DNA of 64,000 bases, taken from Yinghuangia seranimata (lineage in GTDB: Bacteria; Actinomycetota; Actinomycetes; Streptomycetales; Streptomycetaceae). The translations under genes were made by a program, and so were the position numbers. The DNA lies in the NCBI RefSeq assembly GCF_029953285.1, contig NZ_JASAOI010000052.1, positions 1 through 64,000 on the forward strand, given 5' to 3'. Shown piece by piece: positions 1 through 55,962 of the stretch (its first letter is position 1; every line of letters starts with the position of its first letter). The notes under the pieces were generated by a model that saw only the letters and a program-made list of their open reading frames with translations, was not told the DNA's origin and made no database searches.

Positions 1-146
1 CCACGCGGGAGGGGGAGGACGCCACCATCGCGATGCGGATCGCGGCGGTGCAGGTCCCGGCCGTCCCCGCCGCGAGGCTGCCCGCGGCGGTGCGGGCCCG
101 GGCAGTCCCCGAACCGACGGAGCAGCCCGACCGCGCGACCCCTGCT
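1..146. other. Left edge, no gene assigned
   Basis: GC-rich sequence before the first repeat. An open frame in phase with the downstream regulator begins at 33, but it runs through a dispersed repeat and lacks the regulator's family N-terminus, so it is not taken as coding for that protein. It may be the tail of a gene lying outside the window. Nothing here supports a specific function. Confidence 0.4.
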
Positions 147-219
147 TACTGTGCCGTCACGTATGCGAATCACCAGAACTCCCTCATCGGGGGGTGTTCG
201 CGTCACACCTGCGTCACCG
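147..219 (+). repeat. Dispersed repeat, copy 1 (heptamer direct repeat)
   Basis: About 73 bp that reappear in reverse orientation at 35442-35514, with roughly ten differences by eye. The strictly kept core includes GTCACGTATGCGAATCA, CTCCCTCATCGGGGG and a direct repeat GCGTCAC (200-206 and 211-217) at 11-bp spacing. It lies 54 bp upstream of the SARP-type regulator gene. An 11-bp heptamer spacing is typical of SARP binding sites, but the repeat is too far from the presumed promoter next to 273 for the usual activator geometry. Confidence 0.6.
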
Positions 220-13610: not shown

Positions 13611-13976
13611 CCCCACGCCACCACCCTGACGAACAAGGCCGCAGAATCCCCGCACCAGTCCTCACCTGACCCACCAGCCGGTAAACACTCCCCTTCCGCC
13701 CCCGGAGGCGCGTTCGCCGCCACGAACTGGGCTCGGCCGTTCGGCTCATCGCACGAAGCACCGATGGCCGACGCATGTACGGCGGCGCCGCCCCAACAGG
13801 CGGCGCCGCAACACGCATTCGACCTAGGCCACGCACGGTATGACAGCAAGACACGTACCAGGCACTGCCCTACGCGGCGCGGCCCACCGCCGCGCCGCGC
13901 AATTCCGAGGCGCCGGTGCGAGAGGGGGGCACGAACCCTATGGATCCTCGGCTCGCAGTCGTGATCGACTGGGTCC
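13611..13976. repeat. Intergenic block with first copy of the hairpin repeat
   Basis: 366 bp without a credible gene. From about 13715 it carries a diverged copy of the composite repeat found at 14.9-15.9 kb. The A hairpin has an 11-bp stem (13782-13792 with 13799-13809, loop CCAACA). The B hairpin has a 10-bp perfect stem CGCGGCGCGG (13873-13882) with CCGCGCCGCG (13890-13899). The flanking words GATGGCCGACGCA and GACACGTACC are shared with later copies. Confidence 0.6.
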
Positions 13977-14354
13977 ATGAGCTTGGCGGTGGATGTGTTT
14001 GTCCTCGGCGGGGACGACAAGATGGTCCTGCTGGACGTCCCGGCAGGCAGCTCAGACCTCGCGGGCTTTGAGCGCTGGCGTACTTACGTGTGGGGATCCG
14101 AGGCCGTGCGCTCCCTGGGCGCGAGGTTCTTCCCGATCCTGGCCAGCGGTGACCTCATGGTGGCGCCGGACCAGGTGGCGGACTTCCTGGGCGAGTGCTC
14201 CTTGATCCGGAACAGCCTCGAACTCGTCGCCCCCAACGCTGACCCGGGGAAGCCGCATGGGGAGTACGTTCGGCAAATCTCGGAGCGGCTGCGGAACATC
14301 GAGGATGCTGCTGAGCGCGCGCGGAGCGTCAGGGGTGGTGTGGTCATCTGGTAG
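13977..14354 (+). CDS. Hypothetical protein, 125 residues
   Basis: Small soluble protein with no recognised domain. It starts MSLAVDVFVLGGDD and has a mid-region rich in aromatic and small residues (ERWRTYVWGSEAV). A C-terminal basic helix (QISERLRNIEDAAERARS) suggests an alpha/beta fold. Codon use is typical of the neighbourhood, which supports coding. No Shine-Dalgarno is obvious. It lies between two hairpin-repeat blocks. Function unknown. Confidence 0.6.
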   Translation: MSLAVDVFVLGGDDKMVLLDVPAGSSDLAGFERWRTYVWGSEAVRSLGARFFPILASGDLMVAPDQVADFLGECSLIRNSLELVAPNADPGKPHGEYVRQISERLRNIEDAAERARSVRGGVVIW

Positions 14355-14435
14355 ATGTCCGTCCACGAGGAATATGACGGTGGGCCTTGCCCGCGGCGTG
14401 GCAGCATGAGGCCATGACGTTGATCCGAAGGGGCG

Positions 14436-14879
14436 ATGCCGCGTAAGTCGCCCGGCGCTGTGCGCGCCCAGACGCGGTTGGTTCGAGGACAGCCCCGAAC
14501 GTTCAGCCAGGTTCGGGGCCTGCGAAAAAGCGCTCAGGCTGCCGTCAGGCGGCTTGAGACTCAGAGGTTTTGGCCCGGTTTCTTGAGCGAGGCGCTCGGC
14601 CAGTACGAGCGGTTCTTGCGCCGACCTGGCCGGTGGCTCTATGTGCCGTTGGCGGATTGCCCCTGCCGTGATCCGGTGGGAGGTCGGGACAATGTGCAAG
14701 CCATGCTTGAGGTGTTGCCGCCGACTGCACGCCGTGAACTGAGTCGGATCGTGGCCAGGCTCGACGCCGAGTTCGAGCGGCGGACGTTGCCCGATCCCTA
14801 TGCGGTCGAGTGGATGAGCAGTCCTTGGTTGGACTCGCCGACCGCCCCGTGGTGGCACCGGCGCTTGACCAAGCCCTAG
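14436..14879 (+). CDS. Hypothetical basic protein, 147 residues
   Basis: No recognised domain. The N-terminus is very basic (RLVRGQPRTFSQVRGLRKSA). The C-terminus has a CPC pair and ends in an aromatic, proline-rich tail (WMSSPWLDSPTAPWWHRR). GAAGGG lies just before the ATG at 14436. An overlapping frame from an ATG at 14415 reads MTLIRRGD and then stops, so a small indel may have separated an original N-terminus. The stop codon is directly followed by a copy of the A hairpin (stem 14905-14933). Confidence 0.5.
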   Translation: MPRKSPGAVRAQTRLVRGQPRTFSQVRGLRKSAQAAVRRLETQRFWPGFLSEALGQYERFLRRPGRWLYVPLADCPCRDPVGGRDNVQAMLEVLPPTARRELSRIVARLDAEFERRTLPDPYAVEWMSSPWLDSPTAPWWHRRLTKP

Positions 14880-14880
14880 C

Positions 14881-15900
14881 CGACGACGGCCGACGCACGC
14901 AATAGCGGCGCCGCCCGAACAGGGCGGCGCCGCAACATGCGTTCACCACAGGCCGCACACGGCAAGACAGTGGCTCGCCCGATACTCCGATGTGCGCGGC
15001 GCGACCATGGGCCGCGCCGCGCAACCCGTCGGCCCTCCCCATCGATGCATCGGACCAGCTCGTCAACATCACCCGCAGCGTCCGATGGCGGACGGCCACC
15101 CCACGCCGCCACAGGGGGCGGCGCCAGACACGTTCACTACCGTCAACGACGCGGCGGAGGGTGTTCGCACATGGGTTGCCAGTCTCGATGAGCGCGCCCG
15201 CGGTTCGCGGGCGCGCGGGCGTTCCGTGCCGTCACAGTGGGAGGTGGTAGCGCCGCACGCGCGAAGCGTCGTGGGTGTCATCACCCTTCAGGCCGAACGT
15301 CCATACCCCCCGGCGGCGCGGCCCACGGCCGCGCCACGCAAGCCCGTTCGTCCTCCCCCATCACACGAACTGGCACCAGCGCCCGTCGGCCCATCGCGCA
15401 AAGCGCCGATGGCCGACGCAGGCAATAGCGGCGCCGCCCGAACAGGGCGGCGCCGCAACATGCAGTTGCCTCCAGCCGCGCGGCAAGACGAATTGTCGTA
15501 ACGAACACTGTTTGGACGAGGCGCGGCGCACATCAGCGCCGCGCCTGCCCGCCGTGCCCTTACGAACAGGAACGCCGCGCGGCAAGACGGCAACACACGT
15601 ACCTGGCACTGCGCGGCGCGGCCCACGGCTGCGCTGTGCACCCGGTTTTCCCGCCCGCCGACGCGCGGGCCCAACTCGTCCACCCATAGCCCGCAGCACT
15701 CGGTGGCGGACATACAGGGGTGGCGCCGGACACGTTCACTCCCGTCGACCAGACGTAGGCACCCCATCGGCTGGCATTCGCACACGAGTTGTCGGTCCCG
15801 ATGAACGCGCCTGCAGTTCGCGCGCGTTGAGTGGCGAGGCGGCAGGAGGTGGTGGCGCCTCACGCGCGAAGCGTAGGCACCACCCCCTCAGGCGCGGTCA
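14881..15900. repeat. Composite hairpin-repeat array
   Basis: About 1 kb with no credible gene, made of recurring blocks. A: perfect 12-bp stem GCGGCGCCGCCC with loop GAACA, at 14905-14933 and 15428-15456. B: GC-only hairpin near GCGGCGCGGCCCA, at about 14994-15022, 15313-15343 and 15606-15636. C: GGCGGAC...GACACGTTCACT, at about 15086-15145 and 15704-15747. D: GTTCGCACATGGGTTG-like then GATGAGCGCGCC, at about 15157-15207 and 15777-15812. E: GGAGGTGGTGGCGCC then CACGCGCGAAGCGT, at about 15240-15295 and 15846-15895. The order A-B-C-D-E is kept in both large copies, with an extra B between them, which points to duplication of a roughly 500-bp unit. Confidence 0.65.
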
Positions 15901-34490: not shown

Positions 34491-35459
34491 ATGACCGTTG
34501 ATTCGCCACACACTTCACCGACGAACACGACCGAAAACCACGACGCGCGCCGCGAGCGCGCCCGAACCGCCCTGCTGGGCCTGGCCCTCGGAGACGCCCT
34601 CGGCGCCCAGCACTTCGTCCCGGCCAACCTCCCCGCGCTGCGCGCCCGCACCCTGCCGCCCGCCCCCTGGCCGTGGACCGACGACACCGAAATGGCCTGC
34701 GCCGTCTACGCCGAACTCGCCGCACACGGACGGGTCGACCAGAATCGGCTGGCCGCCGCGTTCGCCCGACACCACGACTTCGACCGCGGCTACGGCCCCA
34801 CCGTCAACCGCATGCTCCGGCTGATCCGCGCGGGCGGCTCGTGGCGCGAACTGGCGGCCGAGCCGTTCGACGGCCAGGGCTCGTGGGGCAACGGCGCCGC
34901 GATGCGGGTGGCCCCGCTGGGCGCCTGGTTCGCCGACGACCCGTCGCGTGCCGCCACCGAGGCCGCCCGTTCGGCACAGGTCACCCACACCCACCCGGAA
35001 GGCGTCGCGGGCGCGATCGCCGTCGCTGTAGGCGCCGCGCTGCTGGCCGCGCGGGAGCCGGTCGACCCGACGGGCTTCATCACCGCCGTACGCGACCACA
35101 CCCCGCCCGGCCTGGTCCACGAACGCCTTGGCGCCGCAGTCCGCCTGATAGACCGTCAGGACCCAGCCCAGGTAGGCCGCATCCTCGGCAACGGCCGCCG
35201 CGTCAGCGCGCCGGACACCGTCCCGTTCACACTCTGGATCGCGGCCCGGTACCCGGACGCGTTCGAGACGGCCTGCTGGCACACCGCCTCGGCCGGCGGT
35301 GACGTCGACACAACGTGCGCGATCGTCGGCGGAATGCTGGGCGCGCGCGTCGGCCTGGACGCGCTGCCCACCACGTGGTTGAACGCAACAGAGCCACTAC
35401 CCGCGTGGGCTTCCGAGACCAAGCCAGAACCGCAACCTGGCGCGGTGACGCAAGTGTGA
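34491..35459 (+). CDS. ADP-ribosylglycohydrolase family protein
   Basis: A 322-residue hydrolase of ADP-ribose-protein or ADP-ribosyl bonds. Metal-binding motifs are intact: GLALGDALG at the N-terminus, WTDDTEMA, and SAGGDVDTTCAIVGG near the C-terminus. Its last 18 bases lie inside a dispersed repeat (35442-35514), so the C-terminal residues GAVTQV are repeat-encoded, and the original end may have differed. Confidence 0.88.
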   Translation: MTVDSPHTSPTNTTENHDARRERARTALLGLALGDALGAQHFVPANLPALRARTLPPAPWPWTDDTEMACAVYAELAAHGRVDQNRLAAAFARHHDFDRGYGPTVNRMLRLIRAGGSWRELAAEPFDGQGSWGNGAAMRVAPLGAWFADDPSRAATEAARSAQVTHTHPEGVAGAIAVAVGAALLAAREPVDPTGFITAVRDHTPPGLVHERLGAAVRLIDRQDPAQVGRILGNGRRVSAPDTVPFTLWIAARYPDAFETACWHTASAGGDVDTTCAIVGGMLGARVGLDALPTTWLNATEPLPAWASETKPEPQPGAVTQV

Positions 35460-35514
35460 CGCGAACTACCCCCGATGAGGGAGTTTCGTTGATTCGCATA
35501 CGTGACAGCACAGT
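35442..35514 (-). repeat. Dispersed repeat, copy 2
   Basis: Reverse-oriented copy of the 147-219 repeat. It keeps the GCGTCAC direct repeat at 11-bp spacing (35456-35462 and 35445-35451 on the minus strand) and the words CTCCCTCATCGGGGG and TCACGTATGCGAATCA. Here it overlaps the stop codon of the glycohydrolase gene rather than lying before a regulator. Confidence 0.6.
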
Positions 35515-35543
35515 GACCTTGGGGTCCGGGGGCTGGGCTGTCG

Positions 35544-36317
35544 CGTTGCGGCGTGGGAGTCGAAGACCACGCACCGTCCCGGACCTGCATGCCGGCGGTG
35601 GCCACCTCCCCCTCCCGATTTGTGATTGTCCGCGCGGCCGGTCGCCTGTCAAGGCGCGGTGGATCTTCCACGGACAGGTGGCCTGTCGCGTGGTGGTGGG
35701 GGCGCCTTGACAGCCGCCCGGCCGCGCTTAAAACCGCGGCAACTATCGGGAGGGGGAGGCGGTGTGGAGGCGCAATGCGTGCTTCGCGTCGCCGTGTTGC
35801 GGTTCCAGCGTGGGGCAGGCGGCCGCCTTGGACGACCGGTGACCACGCTTCACGGTTCTCATATCGCACCAAATCGGGCATTAGGGCGCCGAATCCCTTA
35901 TTGGCTTTGCGTCAAAAGAACCAAATGGCCACATGTTGCCATCTGGTTCTTTTGAAAACCGTTGTCAGTGAGAGGTGAGAGGTCGGCGACCGCAGCCCGG
36001 CGGCGCGACCCGTCCCGGCACCCGGCCGACACCGACCGGCAGCGCCGGGCGCCCACCACGCTGGGACCGCAGCCCGGCGACGCGTAGCGAGGGAGCGGCG
36101 CCACACCTCCCGCCCCTCCCGCAGGTGCCAAGGATGTTCAGCGCGGACGGCCCGCGGGTCAAGCCGCCCCCTCCAGCACGGGACAGGCCACCGGTTCGTC
36201 GATGGCCCCACCGCGGCTTGACGCGCGGGACGGCCGCGCGAAAATCGAAAGCGGGAGGGGCGGGAGGCCACCGAACGCGGCGCAGGCCAGGAACGGTACA
36301 GCCAGAAGGCCGCTTCC
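35544..36317. repeat. Large palindromic element, copy 1
   Basis: About 774 bp with no credible gene. Two related arms of about 370 bp face each other around a terminator-like hairpin at 35912-35955. Each arm has an inner hairpin: stem 35632-35657 with 35702-35727 (left), and 36141-36167 with 36213-36239 (right), both with loops near 45 nt containing an ACAGG-TGG-CCTGT-like dyad. Short words such as CTCCCCCTCCCGAT and GGGCTGCGGTCCCAGCG are shared by arms. A second copy is at 55181-55962 in the same orientation. Only the left arm carries an AT-richer stretch (about 35850-35910). Confidence 0.75.
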
Positions 36318-36377
36318 CTCGTCGGAGCAGCCCGACCTCAGTACAGCCAGGCTCAGGCCCAGCCCCGAGTCAGCCCG

Positions 36378-37697
36378 CTACCACTTCCACGCATCCTCGT
36401 CAGTCCCATGCCGAGCCTGGTACTCATCAGCCGTCAACGAACTGTCAGGCCGATCCGCCGCAGGCGGCCCCATCTGCGGATAGGCAGCCGCCTCAGCCCC
36501 CGCCCCGAACGCCGCGTCGACATACGCCTGCGCGAGCGCGACCCGCGGCATTCCCTCCCCCAACTCCCGCGCGTCCCGCAACGCCCGGAGCGCCGGTTCG
36601 CGCCTCCGCAGCAGGCTGTACGCGATCGCCGCCGTGCAAAGCCCGTGCGCGGCAATCGGCTTGGACCGCGCATAAAACGCCGTCCGATCCCCCTCCCGCG
36701 CCGCACCCGCGAAGTCACCACGTACCAACAGGTACAAAGCAGTAGCGTCGCTCGTCGGATACATGGGTTGCAGAGTCAGCCCCACCGACGCCGCAAAATC
36801 GACCTCGTTGGGCCCCCACCGATAGGCACCCGGCACAACACCTGTGCCATCGCGCGGCGCCTCCCGGATGTAGCAGGCCGCCCGCACGAACTGCTGGGCG
36901 ATCTGCGCCCGGTCGGGCCCAGCGGGCATCCCAGGGAACAACGCAAAAGCAAGCTCCGCAGCCTCCTCGTACCGCCCCTGATGCACCAGCAGCTCAGTTT
37001 CGAAAACCCGAGCCGCAGCCGTCCCCGGATCAAGCTCACCGAGCGCCCTCTCAGCAGCCTCAAGCTCCCCGGTCGCGAGCAAGTTGCGCACCCGGACCTC
37101 CGCCGTCGAACGGGCCAGCAACACGAAAGCGTCCCGTCGGGCGAAAGGCATGGCGAACAGGAACCAGCCAGGCGTCGACGACACCCCATACGGCGAAAAA
37201 ACCTGCGTCGCGCCCAACACCGCACCCACCGCGAGCCCGACGCCCTTGCCGTCCGGCACGGCGAAAGCCGCAGCAACGGCCACACCCGCGAACACCAGCA
37301 GCTCCAGCGCGACACCGAGCCAGACCCGGACCCGCCTCGTCGACTCCGTCCGCGGCGCGATGTCGAACGCCGACCCGATGCCGATCTTGCCGGCCACCAG
37401 CAACCGGTCGCCCTTGATCCGCACCACCGCCGGCCGCCCAGTGCCCCGCACAACAGCGAGCACACGCACACCGAACGGCTTGGCGAACGCCCGCCACCAC
37501 CCCTGGTGCAGCCACTTCCGAGTGATCCAGGACCCGAGGAGCAGTCCGAAGACGTTCTGCCACACGTGCTCCCCGAAAAGACCGAGGAGCGACACCGCAA
37601 GCGGCAGTCCGATCAGTGCAGGCGCGTTGCGCCAAAACCCCGCACGCCTTGCGCGGCGGGTCTGTTCGACGAAGCTGAGCGTGGTCACGGCCAGCAT
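36378..37697 (-). CDS. Membrane protein with TPR-like C-terminus, possibly degenerate S2P-like
   Basis: A 439-residue protein. The N-terminal half has four to five hydrophobic segments and a stretch FGVRVLAVVRGTGRPAVVRI reminiscent of the core of site-2-protease-like (M50) proteins, but no HExxH is present. The C-terminal half is helical and TPR-like (NLLATGELEAAERALGELDP, HQGRYEEAAELAFALFPG). ATG at 37697 is used because upstream codons fall in a tandem repeat. Function unknown; the protease relation is weak. Confidence 0.6.
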   Translation of the reverse strand: MLAVTTLSFVEQTRRARRAGFWRNAPALIGLPLAVSLLGLFGEHVWQNVFGLLLGSWITRKWLHQGWWRAFAKPFGVRVLAVVRGTGRPAVVRIKGDRLLVAGKIGIGSAFDIAPRTESTRRVRVWLGVALELLVFAGVAVAAAFAVPDGKGVGLAVGAVLGATQVFSPYGVSSTPGWFLFAMPFARRDAFVLLARSTAEVRVRNLLATGELEAAERALGELDPGTAAARVFETELLVHQGRYEEAAELAFALFPGMPAGPDRAQIAQQFVRAACYIREAPRDGTGVVPGAYRWGPNEVDFAASVGLTLQPMYPTSDATALYLLVRGDFAGAAREGDRTAFYARSKPIAAHGLCTAAIAYSLLRRREPALRALRDARELGEGMPRVALAQAYVDAAFGAGAEAAAYPQMGPPAADRPDSSLTADEYQARHGTDEDAWKW

Positions 37698-37711
37698 GTT
37701 CCCAGCACTGA

Positions 37712-37803
37712 GAAACGACCGAAGCGTTGGGGGGCGCACGACACCGAAAGCGTTGAGAGCACACGACACCGGAAGCGCTCGGGGCACACGACACCGAAAA
37801 GGT
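37712..37803. repeat. 25-bp tandem repeat upstream of the membrane-protein gene
   Basis: Units at 37737, 37762 and 37787 (partial) begin CACGACACCGAAAGCG or close variants; a diverged unit starts at about 37712. The period is 25 bp. It lies just upstream of the start at 37697, where promoter sequence is expected, so it may hold repeated regulator sites. Confidence 0.6.
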
Positions 37804-37880
37804 GGCGAGCCACCAGGTCGGTGGTCTCGCATGCCCGCATATCAGGGGCACCCCGTCGAGCCCTCCGGCATGATGGCGCG

Positions 37881-38525
37881 ATGACGTCCAGGGATCCCCG
37901 CCTCGGTGCCACGCTGCTCCTCAAGGAGCGCGACGCGCTCCTCCCCATTCTCCGCGCGACCGACACCGATTCGTTCACGCGTCCGACCGTCCTGCCCGGC
38001 TGGAACGTCCGTGAGGTGCTGGCGCACTGCGCGGCGGCGCTCAACATGGCGGCGAGCGACTCGCTCCATGGGTTCAGTGACGCGGAGAACGCCGCCGACC
38101 TCGCAGCACGCGCGGACTGGCCCGTCTCGGCGGTGCTCGACGAGCTGGAGGCGGGCTATGCGGGCGCCGCCGAGGAGATGGGGCGGCGAGGCACGCTCTG
38201 GGACGGGCTCGCGCTCGGTGAGTGGGTGCACGGCGGGGACGTCCGGCACGCCCTCGGCGTCGCCGACGCCTGGGCGAGCGCCGGCATCGACGACGCCTTG
38301 GTGCTGCTGGTCGAACGCACCGCGCAGCCGCAGCGAGGCATTCCCGCGACCGAAGTCACGCTGCCCGACCGCACGTTGCACCTGGGCGACCCCGACGAGG
38401 CCCCGGTCGCGACGCTGGTGACGGACACGGCGACGCTGGTCCGGCTCTGTTGCGGCCGCGAGCCGGAGCCGGAGCGGTTCAGGCTGACGGGCGCGGACCC
38501 GAAAGCGTACGTGTGCTTCCGTTGA
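37881..38525 (+). CDS. MDMPI/DinB-like mycothiol-dependent isomerase family protein
   Basis: A 214-residue protein. The N-terminal four-helix bundle has the family core VLPGWNVREVLAHCAA and a second metal-site region LALGEWVHGGDVRHALG. Histidines in these two segments would bind the metal. Members use mycothiol, the actinobacterial thiol. The substrate is unknown. Its 3' end overlaps the convergent gene by 47 bp. Confidence 0.8.
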   Translation: MTSRDPRLGATLLLKERDALLPILRATDTDSFTRPTVLPGWNVREVLAHCAAALNMAASDSLHGFSDAENAADLAARADWPVSAVLDELEAGYAGAAEEMGRRGTLWDGLALGEWVHGGDVRHALGVADAWASAGIDDALVLLVERTAQPQRGIPATEVTLPDRTLHLGDPDEAPVATLVTDTATLVRLCCGREPEPERFRLTGADPKAYVCFR

Positions 38526-38892
38526 GCCTCAGCAGCCAACGCCAGCGCGGCAGTTCGGTCCACGCCGTGGCGAGGACCAGTGCTCCGACGACGGCGACCG
38601 CCCACACCGGCCACAGCACCCAGGCGGCCGCGACGGCCGCGGCCATGTGGACGACGACGATCGCGATCGTCACGTAGCCCGGCACCGGCACGATGACCTG
38701 CTGCTTGTCACCCGGCGTCGAGAACACCGTCGGCACGCCGATCAGCAGCACGAGCGCCAGGACCGCGAGCAGCACCGAGTGCCGCTCGAGCGCCCACGGC
38801 GTGGCGACCCACGCCACCAGCTCGGTCGCGAAGCGGAAGACCGAGGGCAGTTTGTCGTCGGGCTTGCCCAGAGACTGATCATTCGTCGTCAC
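38479..38892 (-). CDS. Conserved membrane protein, 137 residues
   Basis: Three to four hydrophobic segments: ELVAWVATPWAL, HSVLLAVLALVLLIGVP, VTIAIVVVHMAAAVAAAWVLW and WAVAVVGALVLAT. GTG at 38892 is used (TTNDQSLGKPDDKLP). No family is recognised. It overlaps the convergent upstream gene by 47 bases. Confidence 0.6.
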   Translation of the reverse strand: MTTNDQSLGKPDDKLPSVFRFATELVAWVATPWALERHSVLLAVLALVLLIGVPTVFSTPGDKQQVIVPVPGYVTIAIVVVHMAAAVAAAWVLWPVWAVAVVGALVLATAWTELPRWRWLLRLNGSTRTLSGPRPSA

Positions 38893-41969: not shown

Positions 41970-42378
41970 CGGGCGCCGCGCAGCGGAGCAGGGTGAGGCG
42001 CAGGGGACGGCTTCACCGCGGCCAGGTCGATCCCCGACGGGGGCACCCAGCAAGCACTGTGCCGAAGTGCACCGGTGGCAGCGGCCGCGCAGCGCCGGTC
42101 TCGGTGAACGACACGCGCAGCCTCGCGGCGCGGCGGGACGCGTCGCGGCGGGGCGGGACGCGTCGCGGCGGGGCGGGACGCGTCGCGGCGGGGCGGGACG
42201 CGTCGCGGCGGGGCGGGACGCGTCGCGGCGGGGCGGGGGGCCACTGGCCACCCTTCCTCGACCACCTCAACGCCCACCCCGCCGACGCCGGGCGTCAACC
42301 CGGTCCGCCGCACCGGAACCCCCGGCCGCCGTCCCCCGCCAAAGGTGTCCCAGCCCCCGAACCGGGCACCATCCCTCC
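41970..42378. other. Intergenic region with tandem repeat
   Basis: 409 bp without a gene. The middle holds the 20-bp tandem array described at 42121-42240. The flanks show nothing recognisable apart from very GC-rich sequence. Confidence 0.6.
42121..42240. repeat. 20-bp tandem repeat, six units
   Basis: Five units from 42141 to 42240 are identical except the end of the last; the unit at 42121 differs at two positions. The unit is CGTCGCGGCGGGGCGGGACG, and unit junctions create the palindrome GACGCGTC. Near-identity suggests recent expansion. It lies 150 bp after the sigma-factor stop and about 140 bp before the next start. Confidence 0.9.
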
Positions 42379-55180: not shown

Positions 55181-55962
55181 CGTTGCGGCGTGGAGACCGT
55201 CGGCCATGCACGGTCCCCTGGCCTGTCTGCCGGCGGCGGCCATCTCCCCCTCCCGATTGTGGATTGTCCGCGCGGCCGAACGGCTGTCAAGGCGCGGTGG
55301 ATCTCCCCTGGAACGGCGGCCTGTTCCGTGCTGCAGGGGGCGCCTTGACAGCCGCCCGGCCGCGCTTAAAACCTCGGCAACTATCGGGAGGGGGAGGCGG
55401 TGTGGAGGCGCATCGGGTGCGTTGCGTCGCCGGGCTGCGGTCCCAGCGTGGGGCGGGCGGGCGACCACCTTTGACGACCGGTCACCGCACGTCACGGTTC
55501 TCATATCGGACCAAATTGGGGCATTAAGGCACCCGAATCCCTATTGGCTTTGCGTCAAAAGAACCAAATGGCCACCTGGTTGCCATATGGTTCTTTTGAC
55601 AATGGTTTCCAGTAGTCCGGGCGGTCGGGACCCGGCGCGCGACTCGGGCCCGGACCCGACCCGGCACCCGACCGGCACCGGCTTGGCGCGCACCACGCTG
55701 GGACCGCAGCCCGGCAGGACCAGCGCCGCCGAAGTGTCTCCACACCCCGCGCCCCTCCCGATAGCTGCCGGGTTTTCTGCGCGGACGGGCGGCTGTCAAG
55801 CCGCCCCCAACAGCACGCGACAGGCCACCTGTTCATGCAAGATCCACCGCGGCTTGACAGCCGTTCGGCCGCGCGGACCATCAAAAATCGGGAGGGGCGC
55901 CAGGACACCGCCACCAGCCAGGTCAGGAACGGTTCATGGCAAGGGACTTCCACGCCGCAACG
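55181..55962. repeat. Large palindromic element, copy 2
   Basis: About 782 bp, same layout and orientation as the copy at 35544. The ends form an exact 14-bp inverted repeat CGTTGCGGCGTGGA (55181-55194 with 55949-55962). Inner arm hairpins: 55270-55295 with 55340-55365, and 55779-55804 with 55849-55874, each 26-nt arms with a 44-nt loop. A U-rich hairpin lies at 55555-55599. Left-arm stems contain CAAGG/CCTTG; right-arm stems contain CAAGC/GCTTG in both copies, a compensatory change. No transposase or target duplication is visible. Confidence 0.75.
55555..55599. terminator. Central hairpin of palindromic element, copy 2
   Basis: TCAAAAGAACCA pairs with TGGTTCTTTTGA around an inner ATGGC/GCCAT. 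It has runs of A on one side and T on the other, the form of an intrinsic terminator on both strands. The equivalent in the first element is at 35912-35955. Confidence 0.65.

Follow-up and report, generated by a model that had tools for sequence, protein, structure and literature searches.

A family of large structured palindromes at gene ends in Yinghuangia seranimata, with features of a transposon-like element

Among described repeat families, REP/BIME sequences with RAYT transposases are one of the closest to the elements reported here. According to the accounts in PMC3733652 and PMC1525189, REP units are 20–40 bp long and tied to Y1 transposases, and several of the properties described there recur in the present family: palindromes paired in opposite orientation, a non-coding nature, many copies, a position after genes, mainly between convergent or co-directional ones, and use as a target by insertion sequences (IS). 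The differences lie in size, tag and base pairing. The arms found here measure about 160–245 bp; the GTAG/CGTC tag at the foot of REP hairpins has, by eye, no counterpart in conserved columns among 61 arms, CGTC at the arm foot being seen only in most of the seven aligned copies of a one-armed form (type II, see below); and REP stems often hold G-T pairs, while the main stems here have hardly any. The family is set apart from REP/BIME in these three respects, and is like it in placement. MITEs are similar in being short non-coding units with inverted ends, present in many copies and accompanied by a gene-bearing form, but in the present case no target duplication was seen by eye, the ends are long, structured and mostly of unlike types, and the carried gene is AbiEi-like and belongs to no known transposase family. 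Eukaryotic foldback-type transposons have very long nested inverted repeats, with loops differing between copies. Long nested inverted repeats with unrelated loops are also present here; our literature search returned eukaryotic work only, and no bacterial case of the foldback type among its results. Nor was a palindromic family such as this one described among the results of a literature search, which is no proof of absence.

The window analysed is a stretch of 64,000 nucleotides (contig C33, positions 1–64000) with a GC content of 72.6%, from a 9.8-Mb genome assembled in 113 contigs (G000). The original prediction placed in it two related palindromes of 0.78 kb, and both are there: copy 1 matches copy 2 at 80% identity over positions 1–757 of the 774-base query (blastn), and the two have in common an 86%-identical block of 248 bp, with arms inverted within and between copies. 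Copy 1 occupies 35544–36305 on the plus strand. Its right end, first put at 36317, was set at the ends common to its closest copies, those at C55, C69, C80 and C54, which align by blastn from query base 1–4 to 759–761 at 89–92% identity; further copies with the same boundaries, which the prediction had proposed to search for, do exist. Copy 2 (55181–55962, plus strand) is bounded, as predicted, by an exact 14-bp inverted repeat, CGTTGCGGCGTGGA at 55181–55194 and TCCACGCCGCAACG at 55949–55962, which is absent from the ends of copy 1.

Both copies are type-I elements and share one plan: end, arm, centre with hairpin, inverted arm, end. In copy 1, an L arm at 35571–35813 (plus strand, from arm alignment A1; covariance-model core 35604–35761, 167.8 bits) is followed by the central hairpin at 35912–35955, a stem with an A-tract before it and a T-tract after it, and by an inverted R arm at 36055–36298 (minus strand, from the alignment; core 36107–36265). 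In copy 2, the L arm lies at 55209–55451 (plus strand, alignment; core 55242–55399), the central hairpin, placed from the sequence, at 55555–55599, and an inverted L′ arm at 55692–55934 (minus strand, alignment; core 55746–55902); the central hairpins are assigned to neither strand. The order of left arm, central hairpin and inverted arm had been read correctly, but the second arm is not the same as the first, the pairs being L/R in copy 1 and L/L′ in copy 2; likewise each arm does contain an inner hairpin, but the whole arm is itself a nested palindrome. Folded as RNA, the 774 bases of copy 1 reach −492 kcal/mol (z = −13.3 against 20 shuffles), so this palindrome is far from chance. As expected, no gene was found inside: a scan of five of the mechanical ORFs overlapping copies 1 and 2 gave no Pfam match at E 0.01. 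The description of the flanks had to be extended, since further repeat modules are present there. Copy 1 is preceded by module D, a dispersed repeat of 73–98 bp, at 35444–35530 (plus strand, the end being approximate), and the stop codon of the upstream gene (35457–35459; ORF 34491–35459) falls inside this module. A third element, cut by the contig start, lies at 1–218 (minus strand), with the end of an inverted arm at about 1–60 (by eye) and module D at 123–218.

The palindrome is present not twice but in dozens of copies. Querying the host genome with copy 1 by blastn yielded 98 matches, which were sorted by hand into 39 places, and covariance model R2 gave at least 75 arm matches, to which at least 5 further arms can be added (including L099:2135-2286 and L101:9735-9892). 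Contig ends interrupt 12 of the 39 places, and another five R2-matched arms lie less than 600 bases from one; the family may be one cause of the breaks in this assembly. A full-length element alignment was built from 20 of the 39 places, and arm alignment A1 from 61 arms. The arm unit is a nested hairpin of about 245 bp, with a core of 158 positions (~160 bp). An outer stem, which reads CACCTCCCCCTCCCGAT ... ATCGGGAGGGGGAGG in the L type, leads into an asymmetric internal loop, and the inner stem, with GTCAAGGCGC ... GCGCCTTGAC, is closed by a variable loop.

Two gene-less forms were recognised. Type I consists of arm, centre and inverted arm, and measures 0.75–0.8 kb. Type II consists of module D, a GC-rich spacer and an inverted arm, and measures ~410–440 bp in most copies, more where the spacer is expanded; in seven aligned copies the left end is constant in all seven and the right end recognisable in six. 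With a two-block query against the host genome, 35 of the best 40 rows were D and 5 were another block, C. Four D copies among those listed abut type-I elements, copy 1 included. L164-L169, six of the ten arm-bearing D loci, had been chosen for a nearby arm match and hence provide no test of D-arm pairing, but all four loci picked independently of arms (L177-L179 and L099) have an arm after D, and in the truncated element at the contig start the D at window positions 123–218 has an arm end beside it.

The 61 arms comprise 29 L, 21 R and 11 L′, types that differ by compensated changes in both stems. In 24 two-arm elements the inverted arms are paired as L-R (11), L-L′ (10) or R-R (3), and L-L, L′-L′ and L′-R pairs are absent from these 24; under random pairing, zero L-L has a probability of about 2e-4, and absence of all three combinations one of about 1e-5. 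L172, found later and outside the 24, holds a further R-type pair. The central hairpins have several unrelated sequences, palindromic throughout, and at L036, L037 and L043 the centre stands in the opposite orientation with respect to the arms. Such varied arm pairings, unrelated centres and inverted centres show that modules are exchanged between elements. The outer ends vary as well, with blocks C and D and tandem units, and no target-site duplication was seen by eye in the inspected flanks. One rival reading is a passive repeat, in which recombination, template switching and gene conversion at the ends of genes would both spread the palindromes and keep them perfect, without a dedicated mobiliser. 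The free combination of arm types, centres and outer blocks, the three inverted centres, central hairpins that differ wholly yet stay palindromic, and stems almost devoid of mismatches beside variable loops are all consistent with it. Recombination alone does not, however, predict the lack of L-L pairs, an argument limited by the fact that selection against near-perfect palindromes could also give this absence. Whole units with the same ends at unrelated loci, and gene-bearing copies with near-identical ends, also argue against a passive repeat, which we regard as quite unlikely.

The gene-bearing form was met at two loci only, among the window and the fetched loci, one complete and one cut by a contig end. 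At L045 (C75), inverted ends of 290 bp, 97% identical, surround an ORF of 326 aa, the whole element measuring about 1.87 kb. At L172 (C36), a homologous ORF and a central palindrome lie, in this order, between an arm and its inverted counterpart, which the contig end cuts short; the arms are 98.5% identical over 133 bp, and the ORF product is 73% identical to that of L045. In nine gene-less elements that gave a separate arm match in the same test, which missed the remaining ones, the arms are 70–87% identical. The carried protein resembles AbiEi, the AbiE antitoxin, in its N-terminal part: the AbiEi_4 match had E-values of 1.9e-5 for L045, just over the cut-off, and 2.2e-4 for L172, below the cut-off, and PADLOC AbiEi models matched the two proteins at 5.9e-14 and 1.7e-17. 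It differs from the AbiE arrangement in that inspection of the element by eye revealed no accompanying AbiEii-like ORF. The C terminus may be nuclease-like, judging from the weak match of L045 to REase_MTES_1575 (E 0.21, below the cut-off). No match to the carried protein was found in the PDB or in viral contigs. Plasmids gave one relative, in Rhodococcus ruber (34.5%), whose distances to the neighbouring genes (about 75 and 184 bases) leave no room for such arms.

Pieces of an IS5-type element (DDE_Tnp_4, PF13359) were found at L028:2378-2653 and L043:2430-2589, where, by eye, they sit at the same point of the element centre, CCCTATT|GAGGTG, entered from either side; at L027:1-126, an element is broken at this very point by a similar IS end (by eye). 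ISs are described as targeting REPs likewise (PMC1525189). That these pieces occur at two places of the genome only, both in element centres, would fit an ordinary MITE moved by a DDE transposase such as the IS5-type enzyme of this genome. Against this, the IS has an end of its own, GAGGTGTTCTCACC, and enters one fixed site within the centre, so that it looks like a passenger targeting the palindrome. By eye, moreover, the IS end, in what the assembly holds of an incomplete IS, does not match the element ends, and no target duplications are apparent. We consider a MITE of this kind highly unlikely.

Two other species of the same genus, G001 and G002, were compared with the host. The flanks of the element at C69:54381-55137 are syntenic in G001, where they enclose 127 bp, as compared to 1025 bp in G000; G002 has 771 bp of different sequence at this locus. 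An empty site, which the prediction had proposed to look for, was thus obtained cleanly at one locus. For the other element of this contig the comparison was not clean, and around the two window copies synteny with the sister genomes did not extend to both sides. In G002, sequence matching window position 38586 comes within about 250 bases after the homologue of the gene that precedes copy 1, and some 3 kb after that gene (window 35356–38585), copy 1 included, are absent from that species.

A different history is suggested by a single arm in G001. It lies between ssrA and a gene that we take, from its translation, to be pfkB-like, in the interval that in G000 contains the arm of L170; alignment of the flanks of the two intervals gives 80% and 87%, and ssrA borders both. 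As the orthologous interval holds an arm in both species, this arm would predate their split, and at least one arm of the family seems to be old and vertically inherited. In an Rfam scan of the sister locus, tmRNA alone passes the gathering score. More widely, a covariance search of 249 family genomes with model R1, built from G000 arms only, found the family in G000 and at one locus in G001, and R2, run on 39 relatives, matched G000 and G001 and, less strongly, G305, G302 and G004. The R1 scores were 58.1 bits in G001, 39.7 in G302, 33.1 at the only G305 locus that this model scored and 28.7 in G004, with a best background of 17.8 bits in the rest of 200 kb. The matches in G305, G302 and G004 are treated as possible relatives only, and nothing stronger came up beyond the genus in the collections covered. 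At the DNA level, copy 2 was compared with 297 family genomes, two candidates being scored per genome, and gave no strong match. Some match at E 0.001 was present in 107 of the 297; those listed outside G000 covered fewer than 100 query bases, mostly clustered around positions 430–560 of the query, and were put down to chance.

Placement relative to genes was analysed with our own codon-usage caller, doubtful flanks being checked by eye. Twenty-seven copies had both neighbours called, a set that takes in the partial or single-arm copies L034, L035 and L047 and the gene-bearing L045: 13 are convergent, 14 tandem and none divergent, so that at least one gene ends at each. One copy, L009, was moved by hand from tandem to convergent on account of a minus-strand ORF at window 36378–37832, which has a weak TPR match below the cut-off; the counts are otherwise 12 convergent and 15 tandem. 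L018 and L047, which were ambiguous, are included among the tandem copies. Among 134 background gaps, 31 are convergent, 65 tandem and 38 divergent; these come from the window plus eight longer stretches selected around elements, with element-holding gaps included. The avoidance of divergent gaps (0 of 27 against 38 of 134) has a P value of 1.2e-4 (binomial) or 4e-4 (Fisher), and the excess of convergent ones is weaker (P 0.004 or 0.016). In 12 one-sided copies at contig ends, outside the 27, the one gene visible has its end at the element in 9 cases and its start there in 3 (L033, L044 and L046). Ten solo or type-II loci were also inspected. The neighbouring genes converge at five (L164, L167, L168, L170 and L178; L170 is a solo arm that lacks D), where a gene end lies at most 60 bases from the arm side; by our gene calls, the type-II locus L165 is tandem, with the upstream gene far off, and L099 divergent; L166, L177 and L179 had a single neighbour called each.

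The absence of divergent copies and the proximity of gene ends at 5 of the 10 solo or type-II loci would both be expected of a structured RNA in mRNA 3′ regions, in which the arm would be transcribed with the preceding gene and stabilise or end its message, and the centre would act as a shared two-way terminator. A conserved RNA locus with a shared terminator had been offered by the original prediction as well, and placement and the two-way central hairpin fit that part of it. Compensated changes point the same way: RNAalifold found them in 7 of 43 predicted pairs, 5 of these in 11–29 of the 61 arms. Several of the weaker outer pairs that RNAalifold also proposes hold G-U (e.g. columns 32-230 and 33-229), as do the seven solo arms, with 3–8 G-U pairs in single folds. 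Finally, an arm scoring 58 bits has been kept at the orthologous pfkB-ssrA interval of G001, and weaker possible relatives exist in three other genomes.

The main stems argue otherwise. Over 34 listed main-stem pairs and 61 arms, sense-strand G-U occurs in 2 of 2,074 cells, the same cells containing 4 C-A or A-C, 11 other mismatches and 15 gaps; these stems are nearly free of mismatches, while the loops vary. In work on REPs, frequent G-T pairs are read as pointing to transcription (PMC3733652), an indication that is weak in the present arms. Perfect stems would be given both by template-switch correction and by selection on DNA hairpins. The double changes track arm type, which means that they represent few events. 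For L and R arms, the two strands have equal mean fold energies. The antisense strand folds better in 10 of 11 L′ arms, in the arms of G001, G004 and G302 and in two of seven solo arms, and the sense strand in the other 5 of 7 solo arms and in two G305 copies. Rfam 15 gave no credible match, neither over 25 kb at gathering cut-offs nor for the element at loose E-values. A structured RNA of mRNA 3′ regions is to us a doubtful reading, one that we would not expect to hold.

Our preferred reading is a transposon-like family with large structured hairpins as inverted ends, mostly gene-less and located at transcript ends, to which we give about equal belief and doubt. It is favoured because of the anatomy, the spread of whole units, the empty site and the gene-bearing copies, and the placement at gene ends and the IS5-type piece inside two element centres were also counted in its favour. 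Counted against it were the variable outer ends, unlike those of an ordinary IS, and the lack of a target duplication by eye; the fact that the gene-bearing form is known at two loci only, one of them contig-cut, and the Rhodococcus relative without space for arms; the single clean empty site and the old orthologous arm at pfkB-ssrA; and, in placement, the tandem L165, the divergent L099 and the 3 of 12 one-sided copies with a gene start at the element. The mobile element that the prediction had proposed gains support from dispersed copies, matching ends within close groups, the empty site and a gene between near-identical inverted arms in two copies, but the inspected copies have no target duplication visible by eye, and the mobiliser is a candidate only.

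On the transposon-like reading, the family comprises a gene-bearing form, of ~1.87 kb with 290-bp ends and one AbiEi-like gene, and two gene-less forms. The window copies belong to the first of these, with two unlike arms opposed across a short central hairpin, and one arm with module D makes up the second. Whole units would be copied to the 3′ ends of genes, landing between convergent or tandem genes, where each inserted unit would form a two-sided transcript-end structure, comparable to REP/BIME. Movement by transposition, recognition of the arms by an encoded or a host protein, and any effect on transcription are what we infer. A bolder version, which we think unlikely, is that these elements represent an undescribed class of bacterial mobile element, with 290-bp complex-hairpin inverted repeats, marked by a conserved asymmetric internal loop (GATTGT opposite AAAACC..GGCA.CTATCGGG) and a GTCAAG/CTTGAC stem, and with an AbiEi-like, nuclease-ended mobiliser in place of a known transposase; such an element would aim at transcript 3′ ends and would have left dozens to perhaps a hundred gene-less elements in this genome. 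The arms of ~245 bp, the pairing of unlike arms, the avoidance of promoter gaps and the near-identical ends of the gene-bearing form make the family a candidate for a different way of spreading, and it would also bear on what separates convergent transcription units in GC-rich bacteria.

Searches farther afield gave mostly chance matches. A distant blastn search of plasmids and phages found no relatives, and a sequence-pattern search of genome contigs gave 0 hits for one pattern. A second pattern gave 9 single hits in unrelated taxa, scoring at most 25 bits (two in Mycetohabitans), and these were attributed to chance. In viral contigs, the arm-loop pattern retrieved three contigs sharing one stretch without an arm match, and the D pattern a single contig with a tandem GTGACGCAAGT stretch; both were rejected. 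The G305 matches come from a complete genome of another family of the order. There are five, dispersed, four of them of about 148 bp, with the inner stem GTCAAGCGGCG, and in 2 of the 4 stretches inspected (L180-L183) an IS3-type transposase-like gene (by eye) lies within 200 bp. The G305 arms have a weak blastn match of 31–38 bp to six Streptomyces plasmids. In the three plasmids inspected (L184, L185 and L186, about positions 2500–2665) the match falls in a long hairpin that occupies the same place in a non-coding gap. One strand of it folds much better than the other (−120 to −136 against −93 to −109 kcal/mol, with 6–8 G-U pairs), and it is possibly an undescribed plasmid RNA. Model R1 missed these hairpins, and they were not counted as relatives. 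In two of the three plasmids, the two covered by annotation or scan, the hairpin adjoins a C-5 methylase gene.

Other repeats were noticed in passing. Window positions 13736–15874 hold an array of other GC-rich palindromes, such as GCGGCGCCGCCC..GGGCGGCGCCGC and CGCGGCGCGGCCCAC..GCCGCGCCGCG, repeated in several families, and look-alike palindromes (by eye) follow the single arm in G001 (L152). A 20-bp unit, GCGTCGCGGCGGGGCGGGAC, is repeated in tandem at window positions 42100–42257, its copies being up to 97% identical.
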